A stretch of 64,000 nt of DNA from Arenicola marina (taxonomy: Eukaryota > Annelida > Polychaeta > Arenicolidae), in contig OZ025255.1 of assembly GCA_964019135.1 (NCBI GenBank), positions 22,173,708 through 22,237,707 of the forward strand, written 5' to 3'. The notes beneath the pieces are model-generated. The model saw only the letters and a list, made by a program, of their open reading frames with translations, made no database searches and had not been told where the DNA came from. The position numbers and the translations under genes were made by a program. Numbering within the stretch: position 1 is the stretch's first letter; each line of letters opens with the position of its first letter. Positions 17,761-64,000 of the stretch are shown here, piece by piece.

Positions 17761-19060
17761 CTGTGGGATAAGCGCAATTTTGAATAATCTTCGGGGTATC
17801 AAATATCGAAACAAAGCTAACCGTGAGTAAACATCATCATTTCAGATACCCCAGGCGACATCTATCTTCAAAAATATACTCTGCGTGTTACGGGTTGGAA
17901 AGCAGATTCTCGCATGCGTTTACAATGCATACCTATGGAGTTAGTTCCGGTGCCCGGCTTCAACGTTTCTTTTGTCAGGGAAAGGTTTGTTCTATGGCAT
18001 TGTTATTCACGGAACAAACGCACAAGATGTCTCCACAACATTGTGCAGTAAGTATTATATTATATAATGGAATCACAGCTTATCGTTCACTAGATTAAGA
18101 ACAGTTTAACAATCCTATCTGTTCGGCTCCCCGTTCGACATTCCTTTTTGCTACACAACAAGGCCACTTCAGTGCACTCGGATTCGTATTGAAAAGACAG
18201 TGTATACCGGTCCATATAATCGCTTTATAACAAGTTATAATCAGTACACATATGAAACCAAGTTATGTAATCTGTACAACATATATCCCTGAATTAGATT
18301 TGTAGCATTTCTGGTAAAAATAGACGCCAGAATGATTTCTGCACTGAAGAACAGCAGCAAGCCGAGAATATGCCCGCTTTCCTGCCACGCGCAGCGTCAC
18401 GCGCAGCGTTGTGACAGTCCTTACGTTCGCCGGTTGGCATTTATATCAGCTGTTTTCTCTGCTTTTATGCCTCCATCTCGTTCTTAAAATGGTATTATTT
18501 GGTAGTCAAGATATTTATCTGTACAAAGTGGGTTTTTGTTTTTTTGTTGACCCATGCTAAACTGTTGAAAATTATGCAGCTGTAAGTCAATACTCGCCTT
18601 CTGCATGTTATGCAGCACAGAGCGAGCTTTAGCTAACCGAAACACTCGCGCCTGCCAGAATTTCCCCTGAAACGGTCTATTGTGATAACATGTTTGATAA
18701 TACCAAAAAAATTGTATGTTCTATAAATAATTCTTTGATAATACTGAGTAGTTGTGACGTCTACATGTTATAAAAATGACGTCACAATGGACGTTCCTAA
18801 GCAACCGAATCATATGCCACAAGCACGTGTATGGTATACGTCATTCCGCCAAAAATATGCATTATGGCAAGCCGAAGTGGGATTTATTTTGAAGAAATCA
18901 TCTAGATGTATCCGCACGGAATAGCTGATATACGCTCGCATTTTAGGTCGAACCTATCCATATTGCAATGCTTATATTCGGACATGACGCCAAGCAATTG
19001 TTTGAATGGCTTGTATGTAGCGCACACCGCTATGCATGTGAAAGCTTCCCATTTCCTCAC
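17761..19060 (-). other. Intron 2 of receptor copy B
   Basis: Donor GTGAGG follows AAG at 19061 and the acceptor is ATCCCACAG ending at 17761 (minus strand). Length is 1300 bases, phase 0. It contains a partial R2 repeat (18745-18970). The remainder is AT-rich with no recognisable gene. Confidence 0.75.
18745..18970 (+). repeat. R2 repeat fragment inside intron 2 of receptor B
   Basis: It matches 27735-27965 and, inverted, 13690-13910, including the paired TGACGTC(A) motifs and the stretch GCAACCGAATCATATGCCAC. It lacks the ATAGCGAGCG terminus, so it is an internal fragment. The exon 2 frame reads on through part of it before stopping at about 18902, which supports placing the exon end at the splice donor. 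Confidence 0.6.
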
Positions 19061-19513
19061 CTTCATACCCAGAAAGCCTAGTTTAACCAGAGTCGATTCC
19101 ACGTCGACGGACTCCGAAAACTGCCTAAAGGGTTCCTTCGAGATGGCGGCCACCAGCAGTTCCCAGTCCAGCTGGGTCCTAGGAGCAGCCAATCGAAGGC
19201 CTTGAGACATACACCAGGCATCAGCCTCGTGCCAGCTGCTCTGATTGGCCAGCTGGAACACCGGATACCGGAAGTAAAACTTTGAGTCTAGCATGTTTTG
19301 GGAAAGCGTCGCCGAGTTACGTGACCATTGTCCTGCGGCCTGGAGTAAATAATCGAGCCTCAGGGTCGCACCTGGGGTGAGGAAGGTGGAGTTGGGGGGT
19401 AGTTGAATCAACACTCCCTTAGCGTGTCGGCCAACACCTGACTCGTGCAGGGGGACTGACCAACGCAGGGGTCGTCCCAAAGCCAACTTGGACCCGTTCC
19501 ATCTGTAGACAAC
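19061..19513 (-). CDS. Receptor copy B, exon 2: N-terminal half of C-type lectin domain 1
   Basis: The exon is bounded by acceptor TTTCAG (before 19513) and donor AAG|GTGAGG (after 19061), 453 bases, 151 codons, phase 0 on both sides. The first 75 or so residues (VVYRWNGSKLALGRPLRW onward) are not recognised. The rest is the first half of a C-type lectin fold (SSWHEADAWCMSQGLRLAAP, then LDWELL). The conserved second half (Trp and paired Cys) is found only after joining to exon 3, which ties the two open stretches into one gene. The frame is 151 codons in copy C too, with identical junctions. Confidence 0.82.
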
Positions 19514-19941
19514 CTGAAACATGAAAGCAACAAACAAGATGTCAGTGAGATCGTCAATTAGCGAAAAACCACCGATTTCTCGGTCGATAATGGATAAGAT
19601 AATGGAACTTACTTTTAGCCTATGTACGCAGCTAATCAATAGAGGTAACGCGACCATCGACCATCGACATGAATAACGCTACATTTCCAGATAATCACCT
19701 GAACATATCAACCACACTGAGTGAGTGGTACATGTGGTCGTATGAGTCGTGAAACAAAGAGGTCCTTATATCAAGGGACCAACACTAACGTCTGGCTGGG
19801 AATCGGCCTGTTTATCAAAAATATCAGAAACAAACTACGAGCATATGTTCTCGCCAGCCTACGCCAACTGACTGTAACGTTACGCCCCGCTCCGACCCCA
19901 CTCGACCACTGACGAACTGACCACCCCTGATCTCCACTGAC
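19514..19941 (-). other. Intron 1 of receptor copy B
   Basis: Donor CAG|GTCAGT at 19941 and acceptor TTTCAG ending at 19514; 428 bases, phase 0. About 300 bases match the start of intron 1 of copy C (57308 onward). The copy C intron is longer (1184 bases). Confidence 0.75.
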
Positions 19942-22635
19942 CTGCATCTCGCCTTTGCTCGCATCATTGATGTCGATGAAATCGATGAATGCGACGGGGT
20001 TCTGGTCTCCAAGGGGGCAGTCGGGGCAGCTCACGCGGACAGTGAGTCGGGGATAGGCTGGGCCGGCAAGGTCTCTGTGGCCTTCGGCGAATGTGGTGAA
20101 GGTGAACAGCGGGTTGTCGTCGATTAGTTCCGGTCGGACGAGGATCTGGCCGCAGGGCAGAGTGGGCACCTTGACGTAGGGCACGGACTCGTACATCGAC
20201 ACCCGTCGGAAACTCGGCAAGCGCGATTCGTCCAGTCGGAGGGTGCAGCACATCTCGGTGACGTCACAGGGGATGTGGTCCTCCGCGGTGAGGAGGTACC
20301 CGCGGCCACGCCACATACAGTCGCGTTTTACCTGGATGGCGATAAATGCGGAGAGGACATGGGTGGCGCTGACCAGGTTGTGGCCGGTGCGCGTGGACAA
20401 CATGAAGTGACACGGCTCATCGGCGTACGATTTGGCCATGGTGACCTCGTCGAGAGACCCCGGGGCGGCGAAATCGAGGACTTGCACGGAGAACTCAGCC
20501 AGGTCGTTCATTTCCACGTAATACCAGCATAAGTCCAAGTGGAGCTTGTCGTCGGGGAGGAAGGAGACGGTTTGGCAGCGGAAGACGTCGCTGTGGCGCT
20601 CCTCAATGTCGGTTCTGACGGTGACACCGAAGCCGACGAGACATGGGTTGAGACCTCCGAAACAAAGCGGTTTAGGTGTCAGCATGCCCCGCAACGTGAC
20701 GCGCGTGAAGGGCGCGTATGAGTAGGTGACGATGGTAATGTTCCTCTGTCCCTGCAAAAGGATGCCCGGGGCGTCCGCCGCCTGGCGCCATACCCCGAGC
20801 GTGGCCCGAGAACAGATGGCCAACTCGGATCTGTAGTCACTCATGTCCAAAAACGGAGAATCGAGGTAGGCGCTCCGAGCCCAGAGACTGTCCCTGAACA
20901 GCATCATAGCTATCCCGCCCATCCGGCATCCAAAGTTTGGGTGTCCGGACACTTCCAGTCGATCCAAAAGGAGGGCCACCGGAAGCGGCGCCGAAAAAAC
21001 AAATGTCAAGATGTGTTTACGGTTAGCGTGGGCCGTGGGCGGGATGTCAATGGTGGCGTTGCCCTCGGTCTGTCCCATCTTGATATCAGTCGCCGTGCAC
21101 GCCGGGGCTTTGCATTTCCAGACGGCTCTGTACTTCACCTTGATCCGGACGCTAGATCTCCGGTTGTGAGTCAACACCACGGATAGATCGCCGATGCTGC
21201 CACGCACGCTAAGCTTCTCCCCCAGGTCATCACAGCCATGCACTGCTTGAACGACACTCAACAGGGAAGAGAAAGCAGAAGCGGAAAACTTGGGCATGAC
21301 CGGCGAATAGTGAGTTGCGGAGTTCCCTACGTCGGTGTCATCGATGACGTCATTAATCGCACCGATAGGGCCGTCATAGATGATTAATCGCGAGGTCACG
21401 GCGTCGCACTCCAGCGTCGTTACCTGCAGTCCGACCACTGCCAAAAGAGACACACTGACGAACCATATCTTAGAAACCATACCGGCCACTTCAGCGGCGA
21501 CCACGACTGGCGCTTCTGGGGAAGTCCTCGCCCCGTTGTAGTAGTGTAAATCCCACTTCTGCAGCCAGCGGATGGAACCCTTGTCAATCACCTCATAGCT
21601 GACGAGCAGCTCCACAGAGTCTTCAACCGACGACTGGTTGAGTAGAAGGGTAAGCAAGTTCTCCTCCTCAACGTAGCTGGCGTCCCGGGCCGTTCCACAC
21701 AAAGCATCCGGAATCCGGCCCCAGAGGGAGGAGGGAGGAACAACGGTCAGGTTGGGCCCGCCGTGCAGATAGACGAACTGGTCCCGGCACCGGTAGCTCT
21801 GGAAGGAAGAGCGGAAGGAGTGAATAGTCAAGTTGATGGAGAATTCTTGCGGCACTGACATGTTCCACTGACATAAGCGGAGTCGCCTCTCCGAGGTGAC
21901 GACGCAGAGCAGTCCGCATGGTGACGTCATCAGGCGTGGCCGCGCGGGGCAGGTTGTCTCGGAGCAGCGAGTGGCGTCGCAAGACGCGCGGTAGCGGTGT
22001 GCGCGGCGGTACACGGCCTGCCAACCCACGTGGACGTTACGGGGCCTGGCAGGGACCAAGTCCCACTGTTCCTTTAGCACCAACTCCGCCATGAGGTCAA
22101 CGTACCTTTTCCACAGCGAGGTCCCATTCAGACCCCCAGATAACGTCTGGTGCACGCTCGGAGCGTCAGTAACGGCGGGTAAAGATTCTGTGCTTGACTG
22201 CCATGACTCGCTGAATGTTGTTGAAGATTCCTCAAGATTTTTCACCCTCACAGATGTTGTCAAAAATGCCAGAGATTTTCCGACATCTGCAGAAGACGTC
22301 CGCAACTCTCCGATTGCTGGCGAAGAATCATCGACTGTTGCCAAAGACTCTTCTGCCGCCGAAAACTCACCGATTACTGCCGAAACGCCTTCGACTGCTA
22401 CCGAAGACTTACGGTCTTTTTCCGTACACTCTACGCTTGCTGCCGAAAACGTGACCATCAAAAGGAGCCACACGCTCATGTGTCTCACCCTTCCGTGATT
22501 CTGCACCCTTCGTCTCCATACTCGCCTCATACCAGTCCATAACCTACTGGACCCACATGTTGGTTGACAACTACGCCCAGGAGACTGCTCAAGGTCAGTA
22601 CGTAGGTCATGTTGAACCCCCAGAAAGGCATTCAT
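19942..22635 (-). CDS. Receptor copy B, exon 1: N-terminus, Ser/Thr-rich stalk and CUB-like ectodomain
   Basis: This is 898 codons from ATG at 22635 to the donor CAG|GTCAGT. The ATG has G at -3 and is kept in copy C. The hydrophobic core MSVWLLLMVTFSAASVEC begins at Met53 (22479), so either the signal peptide is internal or translation starts at Met53. After it comes an acidic Ser/Thr-rich stalk (about residues 70-165), 18 residues longer than in copy C. A Cys-rich region of about 700 residues follows, with CUB-like strands such as DQFVYLHGGP and LIIYDGPIG (compare LEIYDGP in CUB domains). Numerous N-x-S/T sites suggest glycosylation. CUB assignment is by motif and weaker than the exon 3 assignments. 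With exons 2 and 3 the predicted protein is about 2148 residues, with no break seen. Confidence 0.78.
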
Positions 22636-35929: not shown

Positions 35930-36123
35930 CCCCCTCCATAAACCTACTCTCCATTAGCCTTCCCCGACCCTCATGTGCAGCATGGTTCACACCAGCCCCA
36001 AATCCATCCCAGAGTTAATACCAACAAATACAGCACAGCATGGCAATTAAGCGTTGAATTATTTACGCGCGTCTCTGCTTGTTGCTATCCACAACACCGC
36101 ATTATACACCAAGCCATTCAACT

Positions 36124-37150
36124 GGCCATTCACCGAGACAGAGCTACCCCGGGCCATCCACCGGGAGAGAGAGGGACACCGGGCCATCCACCGGGACAGA
36201 GAGGGACACCGGGCCATCCACCGGGACAGAGAGGAACACCGGGCCATCCACCGGGACAGAGAGGGACACCGGGCAATCCATCGGACATAGAGGGACACCG
36301 GGCCATTCACCGAGACAGAGAGGGACACCGGGCCATTCACCGAGACATAGGTACACCGGGCCATTCACCGAGACATAGGTACACCGGGCCATCCACCGGG
36401 ACAGAGAGGGATACCGGGCCATTCACCGAGACATAGGTACAACGGGCCATTCACCGAGACATAGGTAGAATGGGCCATCCACAGGACAGAGAGAGACACC
36501 GGGCCATTCACCGGGACATAGGTACAACGGGCCATCGACCGGACAGAGAGAGACACCGGGTCATTCACCGAGACATAGGTACAATGGGCCATCCACCGGA
36601 CAGAGAGAGACACCGGGTCATTCACCGAGACATAGGTACAATGGGCCATCCACCGGACAGAGAGAGACACCGGGTCATTCACCGAGACACAGGTACAACG
36701 GGCCATCCACCGGACAGAGAGAGACACCGGGCCATTCACCGAGACATAGGTACACCGGGCCATTCACCGAGACATAGGTACACCGGGCCATCCACCGGAC
36801 AGAGAGAGACACCGGGCCATTCACCGAGACATAGGTACACCGGGCCATCCACCGGACAGAGAGAGACACCGGGTCATTCACCGAGACATAAGTACACCGG
36901 GCCACCCACCGGGACACCGGGCCATTCACCGAAACATAGGTACACCGGGCCATCCACCGGGACACCGGGCCATTCACCGAGACATAGGTACACCGGGCCA
37001 TCCTTCGGGGCAGAGAGGGACACAGGGCCATTTACCGAGACATAGGTACACCGGGCCATTCACCGAGACATAGGTACACCGGGCCATCCACCGGGACAGA
37101 GAGGGCCAACGGGCCATCCATCGGGACAGAGAGGGCCAACGGGCCATTTC
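36124..37150 (+). repeat. GC-rich minisatellite with mixed 28- and 30-bp units, about 35 copies
   Basis: Two related units alternate: a 30-bp type (CCGGGCCATCCACCGGGACA then GAGAGGGACA) and a 28-bp type (CCGGGCCATTCACCGAGACA then TAGGTACA). The first part is mostly 30-bp units and the later part mixed, with occasional deletions. The open frames it creates are by-products of the array. Confidence 0.85.
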
Positions 37151-37206
37151 ACCCGGCCATCCATTGTACTACAGGAAAAGAGAGGGCCACCGGGCCACTC
37201 ACCGAA

Positions 37207-37650
37207 ACATAGAGGCATATCGAGCCAGAGGCACACCGGGCCAGAGGCACACCGGGCCAGAGGCAAACCGGGCCAGAGGCACACCGGGCTGGAGGCGTAT
37301 CGAGCCACAGGCACACCGGGCAAGAGGCACACCGGGCCAGAGGCACACCGGGCCAGAGGCACACCGGGCCAGAGGCACACCGGGCCAGAGGCACGAGGCA
37401 CACCGGGCCAGAGGCACACCGGGCCAGAGGCACACCGGGCTGGAGGCGTATCGAGCCACAGGCACACCGGGCCAGAGGCACACCGGGCCAGAGGCACACC
37501 GGGCCAGAGGCACACCGGGCCAGAGGCACATCGGGCCAGAGGCACACCGGGCCAGAGGCACACCGGGCCAGAGGCACACCGGGCCAGAGGCACATCGGGC
37601 CAGAGGCACACCGGGCCAGAGGCACACCAGGCTGGAGGCGTATCGAGCCA
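37207..37650 (+). repeat. 16-bp minisatellite (CACCGGGCCAGAGGCA), about 27 copies
   Basis: Units are nearly perfect, interrupted by variants such as GGAGGCGTATCGAGCCA. It shares CCGGGCCA with the neighbouring 28/30-bp array, suggesting a common seed. Another unit recurs at 37733-37770 after an intervening non-repeat. Confidence 0.85.
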
Positions 37651-37658
37651 TAGGCACC

Positions 37659-37733
37659 TATTATCCTGGTGATAGTACGGTTTTTTTCTCTGAGTAACGT
37701 GTATATCATCATAATTACCACGATAATTACCGG
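37659..37733 (+). repeat. 75-bp motif duplicated at 38665-38737
   Basis: TATTATCC(T/G)GGTGATA, CGAGTAACGT or its variant, and AATTACC..GATTACCGGGC occur in the same order at both sites, about 1 kb apart. Confidence 0.6.
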
Positions 37734-37993
37734 GCTGGAGGCGTATCGAGCCAGAGGCACACCGGGCCACTTAAACGGCTAGAGGCGTATGGAGGGCAAG
37801 GAAAGCGGCGTGTGGGTGGGTGGGGTTGGGGGTGGGGGGTGTGGCGGCGCCTTAGCAGTGCCTTAGCACAGATGAGAAGCAGTAGAGGGCGGTGGAGCGG
37901 GGTGGGCAGTGGATTTACCAATGGCAGGTCCGCCGGCTAACATCGAGGTCAAACTCACACGCAACATCCATCCATCCATTCAAGCACGACCAT

Positions 37994-38085
37994 AACACCA
38001 CCCTCGCACCCAGCATCCCCCCACCACCCTCGCACCCAGCATCCCCCCACCACCCTCGCACCCAGCATCCCCCCACCACCCCACT
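37994..38085 (+). repeat. 26-bp C-rich minisatellite, about 3.5 copies
   Basis: The unit is CACCACCCTCGCACCCAGCA then TCCCCC. It lies at the left edge of a CpG-rich stretch (about 38130-38350) in which I recognise no gene. Confidence 0.8.
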
Positions 38086-38664
38086 CTGTTTCCAGAAAGC
38101 AAAAAAAAACACACATGAAAACGACATCCCATTGACGGCCGTGCAGCGAGTAACGCGCGGCCGTGGGACGGACGGCGACGCCACCTCTTCGCGGCTCCTA
38201 AATAAGGCACACATAACAAGCAGCGGGATCCATTTGGCCGCATTATGTTGCCAGATAGCCCGCCCCACGGGGCCGTCCTTCCCGCCGACCGCTGGGCCTT
38301 AATAAGCCGGAGGGGTGGCCGCCCGCCCCCGCACCAAGGAGACGGGCGCCTAGTGACTGCATAGGGCGAATGAAAGACGAGCCTACGGGGAGGGGTGGGT
38401 GAGGACAGAGGGGAGGGGAGGGGGCCGGGGGGTGCTGGACAAGCGGAACAATATCTCTCTTGACAGCTAGGGACACCCAGAGTCTTTAAGAGCGAGGTCG
38501 GTGACCCTATTAATGGTCAGTAGCGGGGAAGGGTTGCAGAACGTAGGCGGGGAAGGTGATAATAGCTAATAATGTTGCAATGAACTAACATTATCACAGC
38601 GTCAGGGGAGGTCATCAGTACGACAAAGCTACATTACGCAATTTTTTTTTCACTATCCTGGTCT
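38086..38664. other. CpG-rich stretch without recognised gene
   Basis: 38130-38350 is markedly GC- and CpG-rich compared with its surroundings. It could be a CpG island or promoter of an unrecognised transcript, or composition left by the minisatellite block. Confidence 0.35.
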
Positions 38665-38870
38665 ATTATCCGGGTGATATTAGGGTATTTTTCTTCGAGT
38701 AACGTCTACCATCGTAATTACCATTATGATTACCGGGCAATTGTGACTCAATTGACAGATTTGAGGAAACATACACAGTAACCGATAAAGTTATGAGCTT
38801 TACAACGCAGTAGGGGTCCAAAGTAACAGTCACAAAATGTCCTTGTTGCGGACGACATCAGAGGGATATC

Positions 38871-40997
38871 CAACTGATCTCCTATATAGGGCTTAGCGTC
38901 TATTCAGATATCCAACTGATCTCCTGTATAAGGCTTAGGGGCTATCCAGGTATCTAACTGTCCCCTGTATAAGGCTTAGCGGCTATCCAGGTATCTAACT
39001 GTCCCCTGTATAAAGCTTAGGGGCTATCCAGGTATCTTACTGTCCCCTGTATAAGGCTTAGGGGCTATCCAGGTATCTAACTGTCCCATGTATAAGGCTT
39101 AGGGGCTATCCAGGTATCTAACTGTCCCCTGTATAAGGCTTAGGGGCTATCCAGGTATCTAACTGTCCCCTGTATAAGGCTTAGGGGCTATCCAGGTATC
39201 TTACTGTCCCCTGGGGGGGGGGCCTCCCTGGTGTAGTGGTTAGCGCACTAGACCGCAGATCAATAGGTCCTGGGTTCGAATCCGGGCTCGGGCACCTAAT
39301 CTGGGGCATGTTTCATTCCTTCATCCTTCATCGTCTCGGGAGGTTCCTTGGCCCAATTTAGCCTGTATGTGCACAAAAGTGGCCTAAAACACCAACATTC
39401 CATTCCTCTTACTGTCCCCTGTATAAGGCTTAGGGGCTATCCAGGTATCTTACTGTCCCCTGTATAAGGCTTGGGGGCTATCCAGGTATCTAACTGTCCC
39501 ATGTATAAGGCTTAGGGGCTATCCAGGTATCTAACTGTCCCATGTATAAGGCTTAGGGGCTATCCAAGTATCTAACTGTCCCCTGTATATAAGGCTTAGG
39601 GGCTATCCAGGTATCTAACTGTCCCATGTATAAGGCTTAGGGGCTATCCAGGTATCTAACTGTCCCCTGTATAAGGCTTAGGGGCTATCCAGGTATCTAA
39701 CTGTCCCCTGTATAAGGCTTAGGGGCTATCCAGGTATCTAACTGTCCCATGTATAAGGCTTAGGGGCTATCCAGGTATCTAAATGTCCCATGTATAAGGC
39801 TTAGGGGCTATCCAGGTATCTAACTGTCCCCTGTATAAGGCTTAGGGGCTATCCAGGTATCTAACTGTCCCCTGTATAAGGCTTTAGGGCTATCCAGGTA
39901 TCTAACTGTCCCCTGTATATAAGGCTTAGGGGCTATCCAGGTATCTAACTGTCCCCTGTATAAGGCTTAGGGGCTATCCAGGTATCTAACTGTCCCCTGT
40001 ATAAGGCTTAGGGCCTATCCAGGTATCTAACTGTCCCCTGTATAAGGCTTAGGGGCTATCCAGGTATCTAACTGTCCCATGTATAAGGCTTAGGGGCTAT
40101 CCAGGTATCTAAATGTCCCATGTATAAGGCTTAGGGGCTATCCAGGTATCTAACTGTCCCCTGTATAAGGCTTAGGGGCTATCCAGGTATCTAACTGTCC
40201 CCTGTATAAGGCTTAGGGGCTATCCAGGTATCTAACTGTCCTATGTATAAGGCTTAGGGGCTATCCAAGTATCTAACTGTCCCCTGTATAAGGCTTAGGG
40301 GCTATCCAGGTATCTAACTGTCCCCTATATAAGGCTTAGGGGCTATCCAGTTATCTAACTGTCTCCTGTATAAGGCTTAGGGGCTATCCAGGTATCTAAC
40401 TGTCCCATGTATAAGGCTTTGGGGCTATCCAGGTATGTAACTGTCCCCTGTATAAGGCTTTGGGGCTATCCAGGTATCTAACTGTCCCCTGTATAAGGCT
40501 TAGGGGCTATCCAGGTATCTAACTGTCTCCTGTATAAGGCTTAGGGGCTATCCAGGTATCTAACTGTCCCCTGTATAAGGCTTAGGGGCTATCCAGGTAT
40601 CTAACTGTCTCCTGTATAAGGCTTAGGGGCTATCCAGGTATCTAACTGTCTCCTGTATAAGGCTTAGGGGCTATCCAGGTATCTAACTGTCCCATGTATA
40701 AGGCTTAGGGGCTATCCAGGTATCTAACTGTCCCCTGTATAAGGCTTAGGGGCTATCCAGGTATCTAACTGTCCCATGTATAAGGCTTAGGGGATATCCA
40801 GGTATCTAACTGTCTCCTGTATAAGGCTTAGGGGCTATCCAGGTATCTAACTGTCCCCGGAATAAGGCTTAGGGGCTATCCAGGTATCTAACTGTCCCAT
40901 GTATAAGGCTTAGGGGCTATCCAGGTATCTAACTGTCCCCTGTATAAGGCTTGGGGGATATCCAGTTATCTAACTGTCCCATGTATAAAGCTTAGCG
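38871..40997 (+). repeat. 41-bp minisatellite, about 47 copies, interrupted by a SINE
   Basis: The unit is CCCCTGTATAAGGCTTAGGG followed by GCTATCCAGGTATCTAACTGT (41 bases, exact spacing). Units differ at a few positions (CCCCTG or CCCATG, CTAACTG or CTTACTG). Two marker variants, a TATAT expansion (39581, 39911) and CTAAATG (39780, 40110), recur at exactly 330 bases, that is eight units plus 2 bases. The first units (38871-38960) are degenerate. Confidence 0.95.
39214..39406 (+). mobile_element. tRNA-derived SINE, family S1, copy 2, inserted in the 41-bp minisatellite
   Basis: The head is CCTCCCTGGTGTAGTGGTTA (A-box) with GGTTCGAATCC (B-box, 39273-39283), so an internal RNA polymerase III promoter is present. 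The 3' end is ATTCC-rich. It is flanked by a perfect 15-bp target duplication, TCTTACTGTCCCCTG (39199-39213 and 39407-39421), drawn from the satellite unit. It is nearly identical to the 50138-50323 copy, so recent. It is not a functional tRNA because the acceptor stem is not closed. Confidence 0.92.
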
Positions 40998-41205
40998 AAC
41001 TAATAAGACGGGCCTCGTTTTCGCTGCCACGTGATACCCTATTTCGCTATACCAACAGTTACGCATAAGTTCGGAGATTAAAAACAGAATTTAGAAAATA
41101 AAACACGCAACCAATGACAGTTCTCGAGCTCTGAAGGCTAGCCTACCCTACACATGTCTGGGCCATTCGCAATACAATAAATTGATGCAATTTGCAAATA
41201 GATTG
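40998..41205. other. Short spacer without recognised feature
   Basis: Nothing recognised between the minisatellite and a SINE fragment. Confidence 0.3.
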
Positions 41206-54447: not shown

Positions 54448-54667
54448 GACGCAAACCAATTAACGTCCACTACACTGAGTTATCGCTTTGGTTAATAGGA
54501 CCCAATCTAACCCTCGCAGTTGTGGATCTGCCACCCACGTGTGCTCTTCAGCCCACCACATGACCGCCCATTATCAGTCCGGTATTTAAAACGCAAAGAG
54601 TCACAAGACATAATCGAAGGACTCGACGAGATACCCTTAAACAATAGCGATAGAAACTTAGATAGTT
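54448..54667 (+). promoter_or_regulatory. Conserved 5' flank (promoter region) of receptor copy C
   Basis: It matches 22864-22636 inverted. A TATA-like TATTTAAAA lies at 54583-54591, about 77 bases before the ATG and absent from copy B. The block with CCAATTAACGTCCACTACAC and GTTATCGCTTTGGTTAAT is kept in both copies and is the best candidate for shared regulation. Confidence 0.45.
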
Positions 54668-57307
54668 ATGGATGCCTTCCTAGAGGTTCAACATGACCTA
54701 CGTACTCATCTTGGACAGTCTCTAGGACGTGCTTGTCCCCCAACATGTGGGTCCAGTAGGTTATGGACTGGTATGAGGCGAGTATGGAGACGAAAGGTGC
54801 AGAATCACGGAAGGGTGAGACACATGAGCGTGTGGCTCCTGTTGATGGTCAAGTTTTCGGCAGCAGTCGTAGAGTGTACGGAAACAGTCCATGCGTCTTC
54901 ATTAGCAGTCGAAGATTCTTCGGCAGCAATCGGAGAGTTGCGGACGTCTTCTGCAGATGTCGCAAAATCTCTGGCATTTTTGACAACATCTGTGAAGGTG
55001 AGGAATTTTGAGGAATCTTCAACAACATTCAGCGAGACATTGCAGTCAAGCATAGAATCTTTACCCGCCGTTAATGACGCTGCGAGCGTACACCAGACGT
55101 TATCTGGGGGTCTGAATGGGACCTCGCTGTGGAAGAGGTACGTTGACCTCATGGCGGAATTGGTGCTAAAGGAACAGTGGGACTTGGTCCCTGCCAGGCC
55201 CCGTAACGTCCATATGGGTAGGCAGGCCGTGTACCGCCGCGCGCACCGCTACCGCGCGTCTTGCGACGCCACTCGCTGCTCCGAGACAACCTGCCCCGCG
55301 CGGCCACGCCTGATGACGTCACCATGCGGAACATTCTGCGTCATCACCTCGGAGAGGCGACTCCGCTTATGTCAGTGGAACATGTGGGTGCCGGTAGAAT
55401 TCTCCATCAACTTGACTATTCACTCCTTCCGCTCTTCCTTCCAGAGCTACCGGTGCCGGGACCAGTTCGTCTATCTGCACGGCGGGCCCAACCCTACCGT
55501 TGTTCCTCCTCCCTCCCTCTGGGGCCGGATTCCGGATGCTTTGTGCGGAACGGCTCGGGACGCCAGCTACGTTGAGGAGGAGAACTTGCTTACCCTTCTA
55601 CTCAACCAGTCGTCGGTTGAAGACTCTGTGGAGCTGCTCGTCAGCTATGAGGTGATCGACAAGGGTTCCATCCGCTGGCTGCACAGGTGGGGTTTACCCA
55701 ACACTCACGGGAGCAAGACTTCCCCAGAAGCGCCAGTCGTGGTCGCCGCTGAAGTGGCCGGTATGGTTTCTAACATATGGTTCGTCAGTGTGTCTCTTTT
55801 GGCAGTGGTCGGACTGCAGGTAACGACGCTGGAGTGCGACGCCGTGACCTCACATTTAATCATCTATGACGGCCCCATCGGGGCGACTAATGATGTCATC
55901 GATGACATAGCTGTGGGGAACCGGCACTCCGCAACTCACTATTCGCCGGTCATGCCCAAGTTTTCCGCTTCTGCTTTCTCTTCCCTGTTGGATGTCATTC
56001 GATCAGTGCAGGGCTGTGGGGACCTGGGGGAGAAGCTTAGCGTGCGTGGCAGCATCGGCGATCTATCCGTGGTGTTGACTCACAACTGGGGATCTAGCGT
56101 CCGGATCAAGGTGAAGTACAGAGCCGTCTGGAAGTGCAAAGCCCCGGCGTGCACGGCGACTGATATCAAGATGGGACAGACCGAGGGCAACGCCACCATT
56201 GACATCCCGCCCACGGCCCACGCTAACCGTAAACACGTCTTGACATTTGTTTTTTCGGCGCCGCTTCCAGTGGCCCTCCTTTTGGATCGACTGGAAGTGT
56301 CAGGACACCCAAATTTCGGATGCCGGATGGGCGGGATAGCTATGATGCTGTTCAAGAATAGTCTCTGGGCTCGGAGCTCCGACTTCGACAATTACCTGGA
56401 GGACGATATGAAATACAGATCTGAGTTGGCCATCTGTTCTCGGGCCACGCTCGGGGTATGGCGCCAGGCGGCGGACGCCCCGGGCATCCTTTTGCAGGGA
56501 CAGAGGAACATTACCATCGTCACCTACTCATACGCGCCCTTCACGCGCGTCACGTTGCGTGGCATGCTGACACCTAAACCGCTTTGTTTCGGAGGTCTCA
56601 ACCCATGTCTCGTCGGCTTCGATGTCACCGTCAGAACCGACATTGAGGAGCGCCACAGCGACGTCTTCCGCTGCCAAACCGTCTCCTTCCTCCCCGACGA
56701 CAAGCTCCACTTGGACTTCTGCTGGTATTACGTGGAAATGAACGACCTGGCTGAGTTCTCCGTGCAAGTCCTCGATTTCGCCGCCCCGGGGTCTCTCGAC
56801 GAGGTCACCATGGCCAAATCGTACGCCGATGAGCCGTGTGACTTCATGTTGTCCACGCGCACCGGCCACAACCTGGTCAGCGCCACCCATGTCCTCTCCG
56901 CATTCATCGCCATCCAGGTAAAACGCGACTGTATGTGGCGTGGCCACGGATACCTCCTCACCGCGGAGGCCCACATCCCCTGTGACGTCACCGAGCTGTG
57001 CTGCACCCTCCGACTGGACGAATCGCGCTTGCCGAGCTTCCGACGAACAGCATGGTACGGGTCTGTGCCGTACGTCAAGGTGCCCACTGTGCCCTGCGGC
57101 CAGATCCTCGTCCGACCGGAACTAATCGACGACAACCCGCTGTTCGCCTTCACCACATATACGGCCACGGCACGGGACAACACCGGCCCGGCCTCCCCCC
57201 GACTCACTGTCCGCGTGAGCTGCCCCGACTGCCCCCTTGGAGACCAGAACCCCGTCGCATTCATCGATTTCATCGACATCAATGATGCGAGTGAAGGCGA
57301 GATGCAG
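54668..57307 (+). CDS. Receptor copy C, exon 1: N-terminus, stalk and CUB-like ectodomain
   Basis: This is 880 codons from ATG at 54668 (G at -3, G at +4) to the donor CAG|GTCAGT. A signal-like hydrophobic stretch MSVWLLLMVKFSAAVVEC starts at Met53 (54824), and Met36 and Met53 are alternative starts. Residues about 70-165 form a Ser/Thr-rich, acidic stalk. Residues about 190-880 are Cys-rich with CUB-like strands (DQFVYLHGGP at about 265, LIIYDGP at 397-403) and several N-glycosylation sites. Beyond the donor the frame ends after four codons (VSGD), as expected for intron. The exon ends in phase 0, matching exon 2. The ligand is unknown; CUB and lectin modules suggest extracellular protein or glycan binding. 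The gene is intact in this window. Confidence 0.8.
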
Positions 57308-58491
57308 GTCAGTGGAGATTAGTGGTGGTCAATTCGTCAGTGGTCGAGTGGGGTCGGAGCGGGGCGTAACGTTACAGTCAGTGAGCGTAGGCTGGCGGCC
57401 GAACTAGAACATATGCTCGTAGTCTGTTTTTGATATTCTTGATAAACCGGCTGATTCCCAGCCAACAATGAGTGTTGGCCGCGGGGTTAAACGACCCCTT
57501 TATTTCGCAACTGTCGCCCTCATACGACCACATGTACCATTTACTCGGTCTGGTTGATGTGTATATGTGATCATCTGGAGATGTAGCGTTATACTTCATG
57601 TCGCATAAAAGTAAGTTCCAGTTGAAGAGCAGGAGTTTCTTGATTTGATTGTAGTCGTGCCAAAACGGAAATTGCCTAATCAGTAGATTAGTTTGGCGAT
57701 TTTTGACCTCCAAAATGTGCTCAAAGGTGGCATTTTACTCCAAAAATCTGCTCTGAATAAGGGGCATTGTTTTCGTCGACCTGCTCCATGTCGCAGTTAC
57801 ATACAGACCCGCCTGGTTTATTCTTTCTTTCTCGGCAAACTAGCTGAGAACGCACATTTTGATCCCCCCCCCCCCCAACCACCCGGTTGAAAGTTTCCCA
57901 AATATCAATTCTATGTTCTTTTAGCACAAATGTCCGCTCTCTCAACCATCAAGGGTTACCCGCCGAACCCCACCATTAGATTGGTATAATTACCACCTCC
58001 CCATTCCACCCCCGGGGATAAATCGAATCATAGAAATAAAGAAGTCATCAACGTACCAAAGACCAATGGCCTCGGTTTTTTCTATCATCCCTATTGGGAA
58101 TGTGCATTGCTACCAGTGTATTAGCCCGAATTTATTTTTTACCAGCCAATACTTTGGGTAGAATAAAATTCTCAAACAACAACACGCCAGCTGATCATGA
58201 CGTTGTCGTTTACGTCGAGCTCGTAATTTGCAATTCAATAAACCATGTTCTTATTGTTGTCATATAAAATTGTGAGCGACGAGCGACGAAAGTTGAGGAC
58301 TTTCTTCTGGACCTCGTTACCAAAGGCCCTTTTGGGCGGGTAAACAGCTTCCTGCCCGCCTGCCTGAAAAAACTGCGCAGCAATTGAAACTGGGGTGTGC
58401 GGGCAGACGGGTCTCTGGCTTATAATACCCTGATTCATTTTCACCAACAGACGATCTCGCTGACATCGTGTTTGTCTTTTTCATATTTCAG
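57308..58491 (+). other. Intron 1 of receptor copy C
   Basis: 1184 bases, GTCAGT to CATATTTCAG, phase 0. The first 300 bases match intron 1 of copy B. The remainder is extra sequence with a C run (57864-57876). Confidence 0.75.
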
Positions 58492-58944
58492 GTTGTCTAC
58501 AGATGGAACGGGTCCGATTTGGCTTTTAGACGCCCCTTACTTTGGTCCATCCCCCTGCGCGAGTCCGGTTTTGGCCGACACGCCAAGGGAGTGTTGATTC
58601 AACTACCCCCCAACTCCACGTTCCTCACCCCAGGTTCCACCCTGAGACTCGATTATTCAGTCCAGGCTGCAGGACAATGGTCACGTGACTTGGCGACGCT
58701 TTCCGGACACTTGCTGGACACCGAGTTTAAGCACCGGTATCCGGTGTTCCAACTGGCCAATCAGAGCAGCTGGCACGAGGCTGATGCCTGGTGTATATCT
58801 CAAGGGCTCCGATTGGCTGCTCCTAGGACCCAGCTGGACTGGGAACTGCTGGTGGCCGCTATCTCAGGGGAACCTTTTAGGCAGTTTTCGGAGTCCATCG
58901 GCGTAGAAGCGACTCTAGTTAAACTGGGCTTCCTGGGCATGAAG
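58492..58944 (+). CDS. Receptor copy C, exon 2: N-terminal half of C-type lectin domain 1
   Basis: 453 bases, 151 codons, phase 0 at both ends (acceptor CATATTTCAG, donor AAG|GTGAGG). It carries SSWHEADAWCISQGLRLAAP, the first half of a C-type lectin domain, at protein residues about 971-990. Length and junctions are identical to copy B. The GTG-initiated frame upstream of the acceptor is intron. Confidence 0.82.
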
Positions 58945-60003
58945 GTGAGGAAATGGGAAGCTTTCACATACATGGCGTTGTGCGCTACATACAAGCCATT
59001 TAAACAGTTGTTTACCTAAACATCATGTACGGATTTAAACATTGTAATATTTTATGACCTGATTTGGCCTGATATTGCCATAATAGTACAATAATGATAT
59101 CATTATGTCACTAGCATGCAATGCCTATAGCCTACACACAACGTTCACAAGTCAAGTGAACCACATCAACATATGGAAGGTATTACACATAGTTTCCGAA
59201 TGACGGTCAAACAACTGCCAATAAAAATACCTAAATAAGATTTACAGGTTTTTACCATTTTGCAAGTCGAGTGAAATTGAGTCGTTAGAGCACGTGTTTT
59301 GGAGATTCCCTGTAGCACAAGCCCTTTGGCGAGACATGGATAAGTGGTTACATTCGGATTTGTACGTAGTATATAGAGGGAGTAACATTACCCATAACTG
59401 CCAAATTGTAACCATATAGTTCATATTGTAAAACGCTTCATATATACCTGTAAGTAGACAAATTGGGCGTCAAGCGTAACAGGCGTCCTCGGGCAGATTA
59501 AGCATCATTGTCCTTTGGAAAACAATATGAGAAACCTTTCAGATAACTAGCAGCAAACAATACATATGTTTATGTAACATTATATACTTTATACCGTGTG
59601 TAGTATACATTGATGTCTAGTGGTCAATACCATTACAGATTGTAAGAAAATTGCAACCTTCATTTCATTTCAGTATAATAAGGAGGGTTATTTTTCACCA
59701 AACATCTATATAATTAACTTTTAGGTGTTTATAGTGTCGCGAGGCTGGTTCTCCTAACGCGACTGAGCGGGGAACGAGCTGATCAACGTTGTTCTACTAC
59801 GTGGCGGTGACGCGTCGATCACGTGACCAAATCATTGACTTTCCTATGCAATGATACAAGCAGAATGATAGACTTATGCAAATTTAAGTACTACGCCTCT
59901 GTATTCATATCGTTATTTCGTTTCCGACCCTATGATGATTGTGGTCCATAACATCAGTCCCTCTGGAGAGGAGATATTCAGAATTGTTGTGCTTATCCCA
60001 CAG
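58945..60003 (+). other. Intron 2 of receptor copy C, with a LINE remnant
   Basis: 1059 bases, GTGAGG to TTATCCCACAG. It contains a LINE zinc-knuckle-like remnant at 59245-59410 and lacks the R2 fragment present in intron 2 of copy B. Confidence 0.75.
59245..59410 (+). mobile_element. LINE ORF2 C-terminal remnant in intron 2 of receptor C
   Basis: One frame reads FCKSSEIESLEHVFWRFPV and ALWRDMDKWL, the pattern of the LINE C-terminal zinc-binding segment (FCxxxxETxEHLFxxC...FWxxxxxWL), with the last Cys lost. It is short and isolated. Confidence 0.55.
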
Positions 60004-63000
60004 GTAACGAGCAGGGGCCCAGTCTGGTCCGGGAACAAGCCTTGTGGCTACTGTGGACCGGACCACAAGCCCTATATGCACATGTCTTCGCCTTCGGTTA
60101 GGTACAAGTGCACCTATAAAGCAACTCACTACGGCCAATATCTATATTTAACTTGGAAGACGTGTCCCGCGGCATCCATCAAGCACGTGACGGATTTCGA
60201 TGACGTGAGGGGCTTGCCCGGTCTCTGGACGGTGGCGCCATCTACCGGCTGCGCGGCGTTTGTCCTCTACGGCTTCCCCCACGTTCTGTGGAGGCGCGTG
60301 GAGTGCGACGCTGTGTTCCAAAGCCCCCTGGTCGTGTGCGAGGACCCCAGCGTGCCCCGTGACGTCGCGGCGGTCACACCCGAGACTCTGAAGAGGTCGG
60401 TCCACGAGTGTAGGCGAGGCTGGACCTGGTGCGACGCCAAGTGTTACCGGCTCGGCGCGCAGGTCTCTGGAAAGACGGAGACCGCTGCCTTTCTGAAGGA
60501 GACCTGCGGTCTCGTCGCGTTAGCCGGGGACCGGGGGCTGAGCGAGACCCTATACGGCTATGTGACGTCATGGCTGGAAGAGGCTTTGGAAGAACTCGTG
60601 ACGCCCTTGGCGCTGTACACGTGGGATGCCGACACCGGTGAATGCTCGGCCCGCTACCTCACCGCCATGGACATCTTTTCTGACTACGGACTCCTGACAA
60701 GCGGCCGGATCCGCCGGATGTCCATGCCCGGCAACACCTGGGGCGTTCGCAGCGCCGTGGTCCTCTACCAGACCGAGCCGGATGACGTGACTAGACGAGA
60801 CTGTGGGAACGGACTCTTCCGCTGCCGGACGGGAGCCTGCATTCTGGAGTACTACCGCTGCGACGGCATTGAGGACTGTCCGGACGGCAGCGACGAGTAT
60901 CAGTGTCTCCCATCGTGCGTGATGAGAGACGGGTCCCCGGTGTCCCTGGCCTTCTGCCGGGGTAGCTGCGCGGGGGATGACTGCCTTTGTCTGCCGCTCT
61001 ACGTGCAGTGCCAACCCGCCGGGTGCGCACCCATCTCTGCCGGGTGTGGCCAGCACAATAACAACACCTGCGAGAACAGTGGAACAGTCGTCCCGAAATG
61101 CAGCGCATTAAACAACGTCACAATGCGGCCGCCTGGCAACGAAAGTGACGTCGTCAGAAATGAGACAAAGAGCGCGTGGTTTATTTGCTCCTCCGTTCAG
61201 AGGTTGCCGGTTGAGTTGTTCGACGACCTGGTGGAGGACTGCGAAGCCGGGGAGGATGAGGAGGGGATGTCGGCTTACGTGACGACGAGTTGGCAGGACT
61301 CATCGCGTGCAGACCCGACGTGCGGACACGTGGGCTACACGGCCTGCCTAAAGGGCTACCACGGCCGTTGTTTCCCGCAGGATAAGATCTGCGAGATGGA
61401 CCGGGACAGACATCATGGGGGTCTTGCCTTCTGCCGCGACGGGTCTCATCTGAGGCATTGCATCGACCACCAGTGCCCGACCGGTTTCAAGTGCCCCCAC
61501 GGCTTCTGTCTCCCGCTCCATCGGGTCTGTAACGGCGTTGGTGACTGCCCGAGAGGGGAGGACGAGATCAACTGTGCCAACATCACCTGCTCGGGCCTCC
61601 TCAAGTGTCGGGGAGTCGGCTTCTGCGTCCACCCACACCAGCGCTGTGACGACACGCCTGACTGCCCCCTAACGGAGGACGATGAACAGCTGTGTGAGGC
61701 GGTCCCCTGCCCCGAGAGCTGCACGTGCCTTGGTTATGCCTACCACTGCCAGGGGACACACTATGAATGGATTCCTGATCTCAGTCGCGCCACAACTGTT
61801 CTGATCTACAACAATAACACTAAATACGGTCTAAACATAGCTAGAGACAACTTCGATGGTTATGGCCAACTGAAGGTTTTGGATTTATCGTTTTGCGCAA
61901 TTGAAGACTTGCCTGCTTTGATATTTCGGGCATTGTTCAAACTGGAATCGCTGAATTTAGAACATAATCATTTGACGGCGCTCTCAAAGGATACTTTCTG
62001 GGGTTTGTCCAACTTAAAACGGCTTGCCATAAGGGGAAACTATCTTTCAGTATTGAAAAGGGATTCCTTCTCTGGATTGGCAAGCCTTCCACTCTTAGAT
62101 CTGGGCCATCAGCAGATCAATACTATTGCTGGTGGTTATTTCGTCGGTTTGACGGCTATCACTTCGCTGAACCTCAGCGGGAATGAGGTGAGCTCCATGC
62201 CTCTCGGCGTTTTGGATGGCATGGAGTCCACCTTGGAGGTCCTGGACGTAACCGCTAATCCTGTCCCACTGGAGCGGTTCGACATACAGGTCTTAGAGAG
62301 CTTGCCCGCCCTGAACTGGCTGCGGACAGACCTGGCCGCGCTCTGCTGCAACCTGCCTTCTGGCGTTAACTGCATCGCGAGATTCACGTCACCAGGGGTT
62401 TGTGACCCGATTCTCGAGATCAGCTACCTCAAGCTCCCTCTGGTAGTAATAACATTCGTGGCCTTGATCTTGAACTTGTCCACCGTCATTATCAGACACC
62501 GCATGTTTGTCACCAAGGGCGAAACCAATGTCCCTAACTTCCTGCTCACCTCCTTGTCCATGTTCGACTTCAGCATGGCTTTGTACCTGGCCTGCCTCTT
62601 GGTAGTCGACCTTTTCTACGGCTCTCAATATTATTTGGTACAGACGGAATGGCGCTCGAGCGCCACCTGTCGGATCATGATGACAATGTCCTTCGTCTCC
62701 ATGGAGATGTCCTCATTGACTCTTCTGCTTATGTCCATCTGCAGGTTTATCAAGGTGGTCCTGCCAATGAGGCTGATCTACATCAACCCGACCGTGATCC
62801 AATCGATCATCGCGCTGGGAAGTTTGGTCCATTTCAGCTTCGCTTTGATGTCGGCGTTGCGTCCGGATCTATTTTTGACAGATTCTAAGGTCGCCAACTC
62901 GAAATGTTTCTTCTTCCCAGTCTCGGTCGACTCGCAACATCCCCTCGTCACCTCCTTTCTGCTCACTTACAATCTCCTCATTTGCATGACGGCGCTAGTT

Positions 63001-63303
63001 TTAGGGTTACGGATATTTTTTTCGCTCGCCCAGAAATCCACGTTTGGCTCGAAGTCGCGCTCCAGGCGCTTCCAGCCGGCCGTCCGTGCCCTACTGGCCT
63101 GCTCCCTGCAGATTCCCTGGCTGGTGCTGATCGCCACCCACACCCCCGTACTGTCGGGACACTGGAGTCTGGATCGGGTGCCCTACTTGTGGCTCCTGTT
63201 TCTTAGTGTTGGTCCTTACCTGATCCTGAACCCACTTATCCACTCCTTTACGTCAAAACAATTTCTGGCTGACCTAAGAAAGATGACTATTTTCTCGAAG
63301 TAA
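60004..63303 (+). CDS. Receptor copy C, exon 3: lectin domain 1 end, lectin domain 2, LDLa, LRR and 7TM
   Basis: This is 1099 codons from the acceptor TTATCCCACAG to the stop at 63301-63303. In full-protein numbering (2130 residues): first lectin domain end to about 1144 ([11 protein letters not shown]), second lectin-like domain about 1165-1290, LDLa at about 1297-1332, 1520-1555 and 1558-1595 with divergent Cys-rich modules between, LRR N-cap about 1599, LRRs about 1628-1807, seven helices about 1836-2120. The conserved extracellular Cys pair is seen (ATCRIM in helix 3, NSKCFFF in loop 2). The helix 3 motif is CRF instead of D/ERY and the helix 7 motif is NPLIH instead of NPxxY. The layout is that of GRL101/LGR type C receptors with added lectin and CUB parts. 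The frame reads open upstream to ATG 59932; I prefer the splice acceptor because the exon 2 lectin half fits. Confidence 0.9.
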   Translation, partial: VTSRGPVWSGNKPCGYCGPDHKPYMHMSSPSVRYKCTYKATHYGQYLYLTWKTCPAASIKHVTDFDDVRGLPGLWTVAPSTGCAAFVLYGFPHVLWRRVECDAVFQSPLVVCEDPSVPRDVAAVTPETLKRSVHECRRGWTWCDAKCYRLGAQVSGKTETAAFLKETCGLVALAGDRGLSETLYGYVTSWLEEALEELVTPLALYTWDADTGECSARYLTAMDIFSDYGLLTSGRIRRMSMPGNTWGVRSAVVLYQTEPDDVTRRDCGNGLFRCRTGACILEYYRCDGIEDCPDGSDEYQCLPSCVMRDGSPVSLAFCRGSCAGDDCLCLPLYVQCQPAGCAPISAGCGQHNNNTCENSGTVVPKCSALNNVTMRPPGNESDVVRNETKSAWFICSSVQRLPVELFDDLVEDCEAGEDEEGMSAYVTTSWQDSSRADPTCGHVGYTACLKGYHGRCFPQDKICEMDRDRHHGGLAFCRDGSHLRHCIDHQCPTGFKCPHGFCLPLHRVCNGVGDCPRGEDEINCANITCSGLLKCRGVGFCVHPHQRCDDTPDCPLTEDDEQLCEAVPCPESCTCLGYAYHCQGTHYEWIPDLSRATTVLIYNNNTKYGLNIARDNFDGYGQLKVLDLSFCAIEDLPALIFRALFKLESLNLEHNHLTALSKDTFWGLSNLKRLAIRGNYLSVLKRDSFSGLASLPLLDLGHQQINTIAGGYFVGLTAITSLNLSGNEVSSMPLGVLDGMESTLEVLDVTANPVPLERFDIQVLESLPALNWLRTDLAALCCNLPSGVNCIARFTSPGVCDPILEISYLKLPLVVITFVALILNLSTVIIRHRMFVTKGETNVPNFLLTSLSMFDFSMALYLACLLVVDLFYGSQYYLVQTEWRSSATCRIMMTMSFVSMEMSSLTLLLMSICRFIKVVLPMRLIYINPTVIQSIIALGSLVHFSFALMSALRPDLFLTDSKVANSKCFFFPVSVDSQHPLVTSFLLTYNLLICMTALVLGLRIFFSLAQKSTFGSKSRSRRFQPAVRALLACSLQIPWLVLIATHTPVLSGHWSLDRVPYLWLLFLSVGPYLILNPLIHSFTSKQFLADLRKMTIFSK

Positions 63304-64000
63304 TTTGCTGTACTGAAATGTTTAATACCGCTCTCATGTAGAAATACAATGATGTTTATAGGCCAGTTTATGTGCACATGACGGCTAAAATGGGCTGCGA
63401 AACCATCCGGGACAATGACATGAGGTTGATGGGACATGCTGCATATGTAAAAAATGCTGCACACCGAGTACAGACGTAGGCCGATGTACCTTTATGGTGC
63501 TTGTTATTATCTGTCTCCGCTGAAAAGCTCAAAAGAACACTTTATGGTTGATCAAAGGAAGAGAAAAATGAAAACCACATCTCGAGCTCAAGGATGGCTA
63601 CAAAGCAGTATAAACGTTTTAAACTTCATCCTGACACATATCGAAAAATATGTTTGTATTGGGTTTGGAAATGCATTTCTTTCCAGGCACGCACGTACAT
63701 GAAAGCGGGACGAGGGCGGGGAGAGTTGTCCACCTTGCTTAGGCGTAGTCTTGCCAGGCCTGTATTTGGAAAATGTCAATCGAAAGAAAGTTGGGTAAAT
63801 GGCATTCAAAAATATGTTGCCAGCTTGTAAAAAACTTCTAATCTTGGGCCAACCCTTGATGCATCGATGAGAGAACAATGAGAGAATATCATGTATTTAA
63901 CCAACGCCGTGTTACAAGGAGTACATGATAATAAAAAGTACATGATAATATAGAGAAACACATATATGAGAACAAAATAATGTTACACCTGATACAAAGT
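63304..64000 (+). repeat. 3' flank of receptor copy C, continuing beyond the window
   Basis: It is nearly identical to 2993-3689. AATAAA at 63930-63935 is the candidate polyadenylation signal. The similarity does not end inside the window, so the true length of the 60.3-kb direct repeat is unknown. Confidence 0.8.

Follow-up and report, generated by a model that had tools for sequence, protein, structure and literature searches.

Does one gene of the annelid Arenicola marina carry a giant outer part with CUB and C-type lectin folds in front of a leucine-rich-repeat (LRR) receptor core, or do two or three separate genes stand in a row? The question is raised by a 64,000-nucleotide stretch of contig OZ025255.1 (C8:22173708-22237707, hereafter the window), in which three long open stretches follow one another on the plus strand. 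Translation of the window sequence confirms what a first-pass annotation had reported from the letters: 54668-57307, 58492-58944 and 60004-63303 join in phase 0 across GT-AG borders into one open chain of 2130 residues with zero internal stops, and the coordinates given for them were right. Exon 1 (54668-57307, 880 codons) holds the CUB and cysteine-rich segments and is open in ten aligned frames. It is followed by intron 1 (57308-58491, phase 0, GT-AG) and by exon 2 (58492-58944, 151 codons), which encodes a linker and the first half of C-type lectin domain 1 and ends at the WIGL-like motif FLGM. Intron 2 (58945-60003, phase 0, GT-AG) interrupts this domain, and exon 3 (60004-63303, 1099 codons plus stop) supplies, in order, the second half of lectin domain 1, a weaker lectin domain 2, LDLa repeats, an LRR block, a CC..C..C hinge, seven helices and a short tail. 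The stop-to-stop frame of exon 3 measures 1143 codons; the longest frame in 200 mononucleotide shuffles of that stretch is 392. Judged from sequence comparison, all three exons almost certainly belong to one gene.

The first-pass annotation had found the structure identical in two independent copies. The second complete copy occupies 14461-22635 on the minus strand (exons 22635-19942, 898 codons; 19513-19061, 151 codons; 17760-14461, 1099 codons plus stop). Exons 2 and 3 are indeed equally long in the two copies, exon 1 is not (880 versus 898 codons), and the copies are not independent: their synonymous divergence (dS) is low, at 0.10, 0.24 and 0.08 in exons 1, 2 and 3, and both belong to one eight-copy array, which makes them recent duplicates. 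Independence is therefore supplied by older relatives, 20-33% identical to the window copies, in the window's own genome (867 Mb, 762 contigs).

Ten loci, chosen from 34 exon-1 matches and lying on contigs C8, C18, C1, C5, C14 and C2, form the alignment A1. In seven of its eight older relatives a single frame runs from the start of exon 1 to the donor in lectin domain 1, so that exons 1 and 2 are one exon there. The exception is the C18 relative, which has the same three exons with intron 1 present and an exon 1 that is 31% identical. Single frames of 867-961 codons reach the lectin-1 donor and are followed by exon 3 on C5, on C14, on C2 (34.56 and 51.29 Mb) and on C1, where three loci were joined and two of them read; a locus of the 20.5-Mb array on C2 has a corresponding single frame of 927 codons, and intron 1 is absent from the relatives read on these four contigs. 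At the 20.93-Mb locus on C8 the front part falls into two frames that overlap, 539 and 482 codons long, which may reflect either an intron or a break; the branch to which this locus belongs has single frames of 959-1001 codons at 10 of 14 places. A genome search with exon 2 gave ten matches, namely eight in the local array, one on C18 and one inside a 921-codon frame on C1; homology to exon 2 within the fused frames comes from this search for C1 only, and from the alignment A4 or the common end point for the others. A three-exon gene is thus an accurate description of the window copies, but not a general rule: it is a local state, which the C18 relative has too.

The border between exons 2 and 3 is more widely shared. 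A phase-0 GT-AG intron falls at one point of lectin domain 1, at the WIGL-like motif, in all 15 sampled loci. These are a non-random sample of the loci at hand, from about nine branches with several close pairs, and two of them are the window copies; C1b (a joined locus), L061, L065 and other exon-3 loci of the same branches were left out. At the C2d donor and the L055 acceptor the borders were read from the bases and lie 1-2 whole codons off the expected motif. All but one of the 15 loci (C8q) were joined into proteins, and matches to the fold itself cross the border: in one relative (protein 3) a single Pfam match at residues 19-155 spans the exon border at position 75, and the profile match does likewise. 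This upholds the proposal that a lectin domain is split over exons 2 and 3. Distances in the N-terminal part also parallel those in exon 3 across seven loci (r = 0.96, with 7 of 5040 permutations as high).

Exon 1 and the receptor core are colinear throughout the genome. Exon-1-like places were compiled from 34 + 82 matches; four N-terminal pieces (query 1-95) of listed minus-strand copies were dropped, and the remaining 112 were merged to 105. With 150 cores as targets, 86 of the 105 places are followed on their own strand by an exon-3 core no more than 8 kb away; the controls are 6 for the upstream side of that strand and 0 for either side of the opposite one. At 15 kb the count is 90 of 105, and the controls (18 upstream, 6 and 1 on the other strand) are higher because of the arrays. 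Use of 154 targets gives 91 (15 kb) or 88 (8 kb), with controls of 20/6/1 or 8/0/0. Fourteen places lack a core (15 kb, 154 targets); ten of these, located on C10, C17 and C18, are short matches (52-154 residues), and seven of the ten contain a stop.

These comparisons bear on the alternative of two or three separate genes, in which a secreted CUB protein (exon 1, or exons 1 and 2) would lie beside a GRL101-type receptor (exon 3). It draws on an ATG codon at the start of exon 3 in copy B and on AATAAA signals in both introns, a point against a single transcript that makes shorter, secreted products possible. The relatives on C1, C5, C14 and C2 speak against it with one frame through exons 1 and 2, as do the lectin domain that spans the exon 2/3 border with the same intron at 15 of 15 loci, the colinearity of exon-1-like places with cores and the parallel divergence. 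Moreover, no above-threshold hydrophobic stretch occurs at residues 543-1832, hence none near the start of exon 3. The one-frame relatives, the intron shared within a domain, the colinearity and the parallel divergence lead us to reject separate genes as highly improbable, and the claim of one gene stands.

The gene is a member of a large, partly tandem family. At least 150 receptor-core places are spread over 17 contigs (of 558 candidates 150 were scored; every one of these matched, some of them within short frames), with arrays for example at C2:20.5-21.1, C8:20.9-21.35, C9:14.8-15.1 and C19:30.1-30.6 Mb. The first-pass view that an ectodomain had been added upstream is better restated: the outer part characterises the family and predates the separation of the loci on C1, C2, C5, C8, C14 and C18.

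The local array comprises eight copies, four on each strand, at C8 22.04-22.26 Mb. Between the complete window copies the ratio of replacement to synonymous rates (dN/dS) is 0.59 in exon 1, 0.38 in exon 2 and 0.49 in exon 3; within exon 3 the lectin part stands at 0.73, LDLa at 0.23, the LRR block at 0.61 and the helices at 0.45, all from one copy pair with few changes (LDLa: 6 synonymous, 5 replacement). All three exons look like coding sequence under constraint. A mostly non-functional expansion, made of decaying young tandem copies with the long N-terminal part as a relic, would account for the exon 3 that is broken in two of the eight local copies and for short exon-1-like fragments on C17 and C18, several with a stop. 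With all three exons open in six of the eight copies, dN/dS below 1 in every exon and many invariant cysteines across ten frames, we give this explanation very little credence.

What, then, does the family encode? Ten frames of exon 1 align over the greater part of the exon and share many invariant cysteines. The family profile of exon 1 matches the CUB proteins PCPE-1 (1.7e-7 over the chain, 7.6e-4 for the best single stretch) and cubilin (1.6e-5). Pfam CUB is found at E up to 1 in six of ten family members, and in three of five slices of the first domain, above cut-off in two; this first CUB domain corresponds to about 55360-55610 of the window. Another CUB-like segment, which carries a YDGP motif, had no Pfam match in the one slice searched, and its best PDB match, 1sfp, is not significant (E 0.15); on that profile value a second CUB domain was dropped. 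The remaining segments of exon 1 are cysteine-rich and match no named fold.

The profile of lectin domain 1, built from ten joined sequences (A4), finds PLA2R in the PDB at 3.9e-22 summed over its lectin domains (9.3e-6 for the best single stretch), followed by Ly75, mannose receptors and single-domain lectins down to 4e-5. Eight positions of this domain (W18, C25, W41, G73, C158, W171, C176 and C187) are invariant in 10 of 10 sequences, and Pfam Lectin_C is detected in four of eight lectin-1 sequences at E 0.0005-0.003, all under cut-off. The profile of lectin domain 2 is weaker, with Ly75 at 3.7e-5.

The receptor core is more readily recognised. Pfam places LRR_8 (1.2e-23), Ldl_recept_a (8.7e-14, three stretches) and 7tm_1 (1.5e-7) in exon 3, all above cut-off, and no GPS/GAIN or 7tm_2 match at E up to 1. 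The LRR block lies directly before rhodopsin-class helices in the one exon, and hydrophobic stretches cluster at residues 1833-2110. PDB matches of exon 3 are led by LRR proteins, first the IGF-binding acid-labile subunit, then LGR4 and Toll-like receptors, with RXFP1 included. Searched alone, the helices are nearest to TSHR (9.3e-9), FSHR (7.2e-6) and LHCGR (2.6e-5); the urotensin receptor is next at 0.0049, and the helices of RXFP1 (type C1) match at only 0.053. A cysteine hinge of the form CC..C..C is a mark of LGRs, and it separates the LRR block from helix 1 in 13 of the 14 joined proteins, the sequence of the remaining one (C2e) ending before the hinge. The seven helices are thus closest to the LGR (glycoprotein-hormone) receptors, and the gene would be an LGR resembling GRL101, its placement in type C2 being by features, not by tree. 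The LDLa, LRR and seven-helix parts and the kinship to LGRs had all been proposed before and hold.

Parts of this architecture are known. RXFP1, RXFP2 and the glycoprotein-hormone receptors, which are among the PDB matches, share the LRR block and class A helices with the present gene, and the RXFP receptors LDLa as well; to our knowledge they have no CUB or lectin domains, and their ligands are known peptide or glycoprotein hormones. The mannose-receptor family (PLA2R, Ly75) has the C-type lectin fold and supplies the best PDB matches of lectin profile 1 and, through Ly75, of profile 2. Its members are single-pass proteins with many lectin domains, and we know of none with LDLa, LRR or seven helices. 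Several LDLa repeats, an LRR block and rhodopsin-class helices are also the make-up of Lymnaea GRL101 and other type C2 LGRs. In Lymnaea stagnalis GRL101 has twelve LDLa repeats and six LRRs, and, unlike for the gene here, the passages on it in PMC8286064 describe no lectin or CUB part; background on GRL101 and on LGR types is given in PMC4079206 and PMC11863921. Amphioxus has receptors with CUB, LDLa and Lectin C ahead of seven helices (PMC2246102), but these are of the adhesion class, and the gene here is of the 7tm_1 type.

Among the closest counterparts are the GRL101-like genes of the snail Biomphalaria sudanica in SudRes2, a region associated with schistosome resistance, where C-type lectin-like, LDL class A, LRR and seven-helix parts occur together (PMC12297450). 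The combination of lectin, LDLa, LRR and seven helices in clustered genes is therefore already published in snails. Ten complete and two incomplete genes lie in a 440-kb cluster, with six more outside it, as compared with at least 150 core places here; they were largely unannotated until manual work, and RNA aligned to 11 of the 12 models (PMC12297450). The main text of that paper places a C-type lectin domain at the N-terminus, does not contain the word CUB and describes no long part before the lectin. In a literature search mostly outside subscription journals and bioRxiv, we found no report of a long CUB-bearing part or of such a family scale, and no paper combining GPCR, CUB domain, C-type lectin domain, leucine-rich repeat and seven transmembrane; GRL101 appeared alongside 'CUB domain' only in a study of brittle-star regeneration.

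The very large CUB/lectin outer part on a receptor core suggests that something outside the cell may be recognised. The protein probably combines a CUB/lectin ectodomain with two C-type lectin folds, LDLa repeats, an LRR block and LGR-like helices, its tip recognising an outside ligand. It would sit in the cell membrane; the external ligand of the CUB/lectin tip would be a protein or a glycan, from a microbe, a parasite, prey or a mate; binding would be relayed to the helices by the LDLa-LRR-hinge part, as in relaxin and glycoprotein-hormone receptors; and the helices would signal through a G protein.

The same helices, with TSHR, FSHR and LHCGR as nearest matches, and the presence of LGR4 and RXFP1 among the LRR and LDLa matches are also what would be expected of a peptide-hormone receptor with an insulin-, relaxin- or IGF-like ligand, in which the CUB/lectin part would only modulate. 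Such a role has been proposed for GRL101, with IGF as the suggested ligand (Veenstra 2021, PMC8286064). We consider it unlikely here: the ambulacrarian species covered there have one GRL101 ortholog each (PMC8286064), as opposed to at least 150 core places in Arenicola, and the helices of other branches are mostly only 21-30% identical to those of the window copy. We infer from the copy number, and from a lectin part that changes faster than LDLa, that a repertoire for varied ligands, immune or chemosensory, would fit better than a single hormone receptor. The place of the published snail relatives in the SudRes2 region also speaks for a recognition repertoire (PMC12297450).

Between these two uses, a chemosensory family for food or conspecifics rather than an immune one is possible, though less likely than not. 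Many chemoreceptor families form tandem arrays of genes with few introns, as this family does. A GRL101-like gene is overexpressed in the sensory tentacles of the crown-of-thorns starfish (PMC6267866), and the sole genetic association that we found concerns parasite resistance (PMC12297450), which counts against a chemosensory role. Recognition of varied outside ligands is the most likely function suggested by the sequence, and immune and chemosensory roles are both possible. A broader proposal, which we put forward tentatively and hold at somewhat less than even, is that the chassis of a type C LGR hormone receptor became more than 100 giant G-protein-coupled receptors with variable CUB/lectin tips and a conserved LDLa-LRR-seven-helix readout.

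Several observations weigh against a receptor with a ligand-binding CUB/lectin tip. On the window copy alone neither Pfam CUB nor Pfam Lectin_C gives a match, so that of the domain search on the joined protein only the Ldl_recept_a, LRR_8 and 7tm_1 parts succeeded; the CUB domain and the double C-type lectin of the first-pass annotation are carried by the family profiles, the second lectin less strongly. AlphaFold models of exon 1 and exon 3, each from two near-identical sequences, were useless (mean pLDDT, the predicted local confidence score, of 25 and 27). Of the 150 cores, only 86 (within 8 kb) or 89 (within 15 kb) are preceded by an exon-1-like place; the two queries may miss some branches, and the remaining cores may have diverged fronts or none. 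In the window copy DRY is changed to CRF and NPxxY to NPLIH, and where the pattern could be located in relatives, in a few cases only, the DRY position reads YRY, YRF or ERM. G-protein coupling is thereby uncertain, although a receptor altered in this way may still signal. EPN or QPD and WND are the calcium-site motifs of sugar-binding C-type lectins; none of EPN, QPD and WND occurs in ten sequences of lectin domain 1 and eight of lectin domain 2, and one EPD lies at the extreme end of the window copy's lectin-2 slice. The pattern-recognition role proposed earlier is accordingly not borne out, in an interpretation whose gene, domains and LGR kinship otherwise survive. Finally, the validated variant of SudRes2 does not fall within a GRL101 gene but within a neighbour of another kind, a Zn-RING-IAP gene (PMC12297450).

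Should a CUB/lectin part of about 1,000 residues, which gene models may overlook, truly belong to the receptor, the end that binds the ligand could be absent from the published models. The position of the snail relatives in a schistosome-resistance region makes that end of interest (PMC12297450). A repertoire of the kind proposed above would be a G-protein-coupled counterpart of variable immune lectins or of an odorant-receptor family, and a family of such size would make the change from hormone receptor to recognition repertoire testable.

The ends of the gene allow more than one choice. A TATA-like element (TATTTAAA, 54583-54590, plus strand) lies 85 bases before the ATG at 54668, and an AATAAA at 63930-63935 (plus strand) follows the stop; both are consensus matches only. 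A putative signal-peptide stretch, judged by eye, begins at 54824, and translation may start there (M53) instead of at 54668. The segment 54668-54823 encodes 52 residues ahead of it and is found in both complete copies; of the two ATG codons, the one at 54668 carries G at -3 and +4, the one at 54824 at neither position. This points to a leader of unusual length or to a start further upstream, and the predicted protein would measure about 2080-2130 residues.

Other copies and places add minor observations. Exon 1 of the two complete window copies is 90% identical in protein sequence. Intron 1 is 1184 bases long in the plus-strand copy (57308-58491) and 428 in the minus-strand copy (19514-19941), and the extra stretch may be an insertion. 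A third copy enters the window only with its 3' part (exon 3; 1-2992, plus strand), which is divided into two overlapping frames, 3-809 and 689-2992. The broken exons 3 of the array belong to two of its four plus-strand copies, this one (a frame break) and C8:22049136-22052570 (a split of ~1.7 kb); exons 1 and 2 are open in both. Some of the eight local copies may be unmerged haplotypes. Elsewhere in the genome, core arrays were also noted at C9:14.83-15.07, C19:30.1-30.6, C2:39.8-40.1 and C6:5.6-5.8 Mb. The stretches C18:9.16-10.15 Mb and C17:13.8-14.0 Mb hold nine short fragments resembling exon 1, of which seven contain a stop; no scored core lies nearby, and the fragments are probably relics. 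In the mitochondrial piece, contig C762, COX1 is read well, as judged by eye, under invertebrate code 5, which argues against echinoderms and chordates; the order nad3-nad2-cox1-cox2-atp8-atp6, its genes identified by eye, is similar to the ancestral mollusc order, as in Katharina, a likeness that by itself would make a mollusc likely, and ARAGORN detected no tRNA there. Within the window, large tandem arrays at 36119-41000 lie in the long gap between the two gene copies: at 36.1-37.7 kb their units measure 28/57 and 16 bases, and at 38867-40995 a unit of 41 bases recurs about 52 times.

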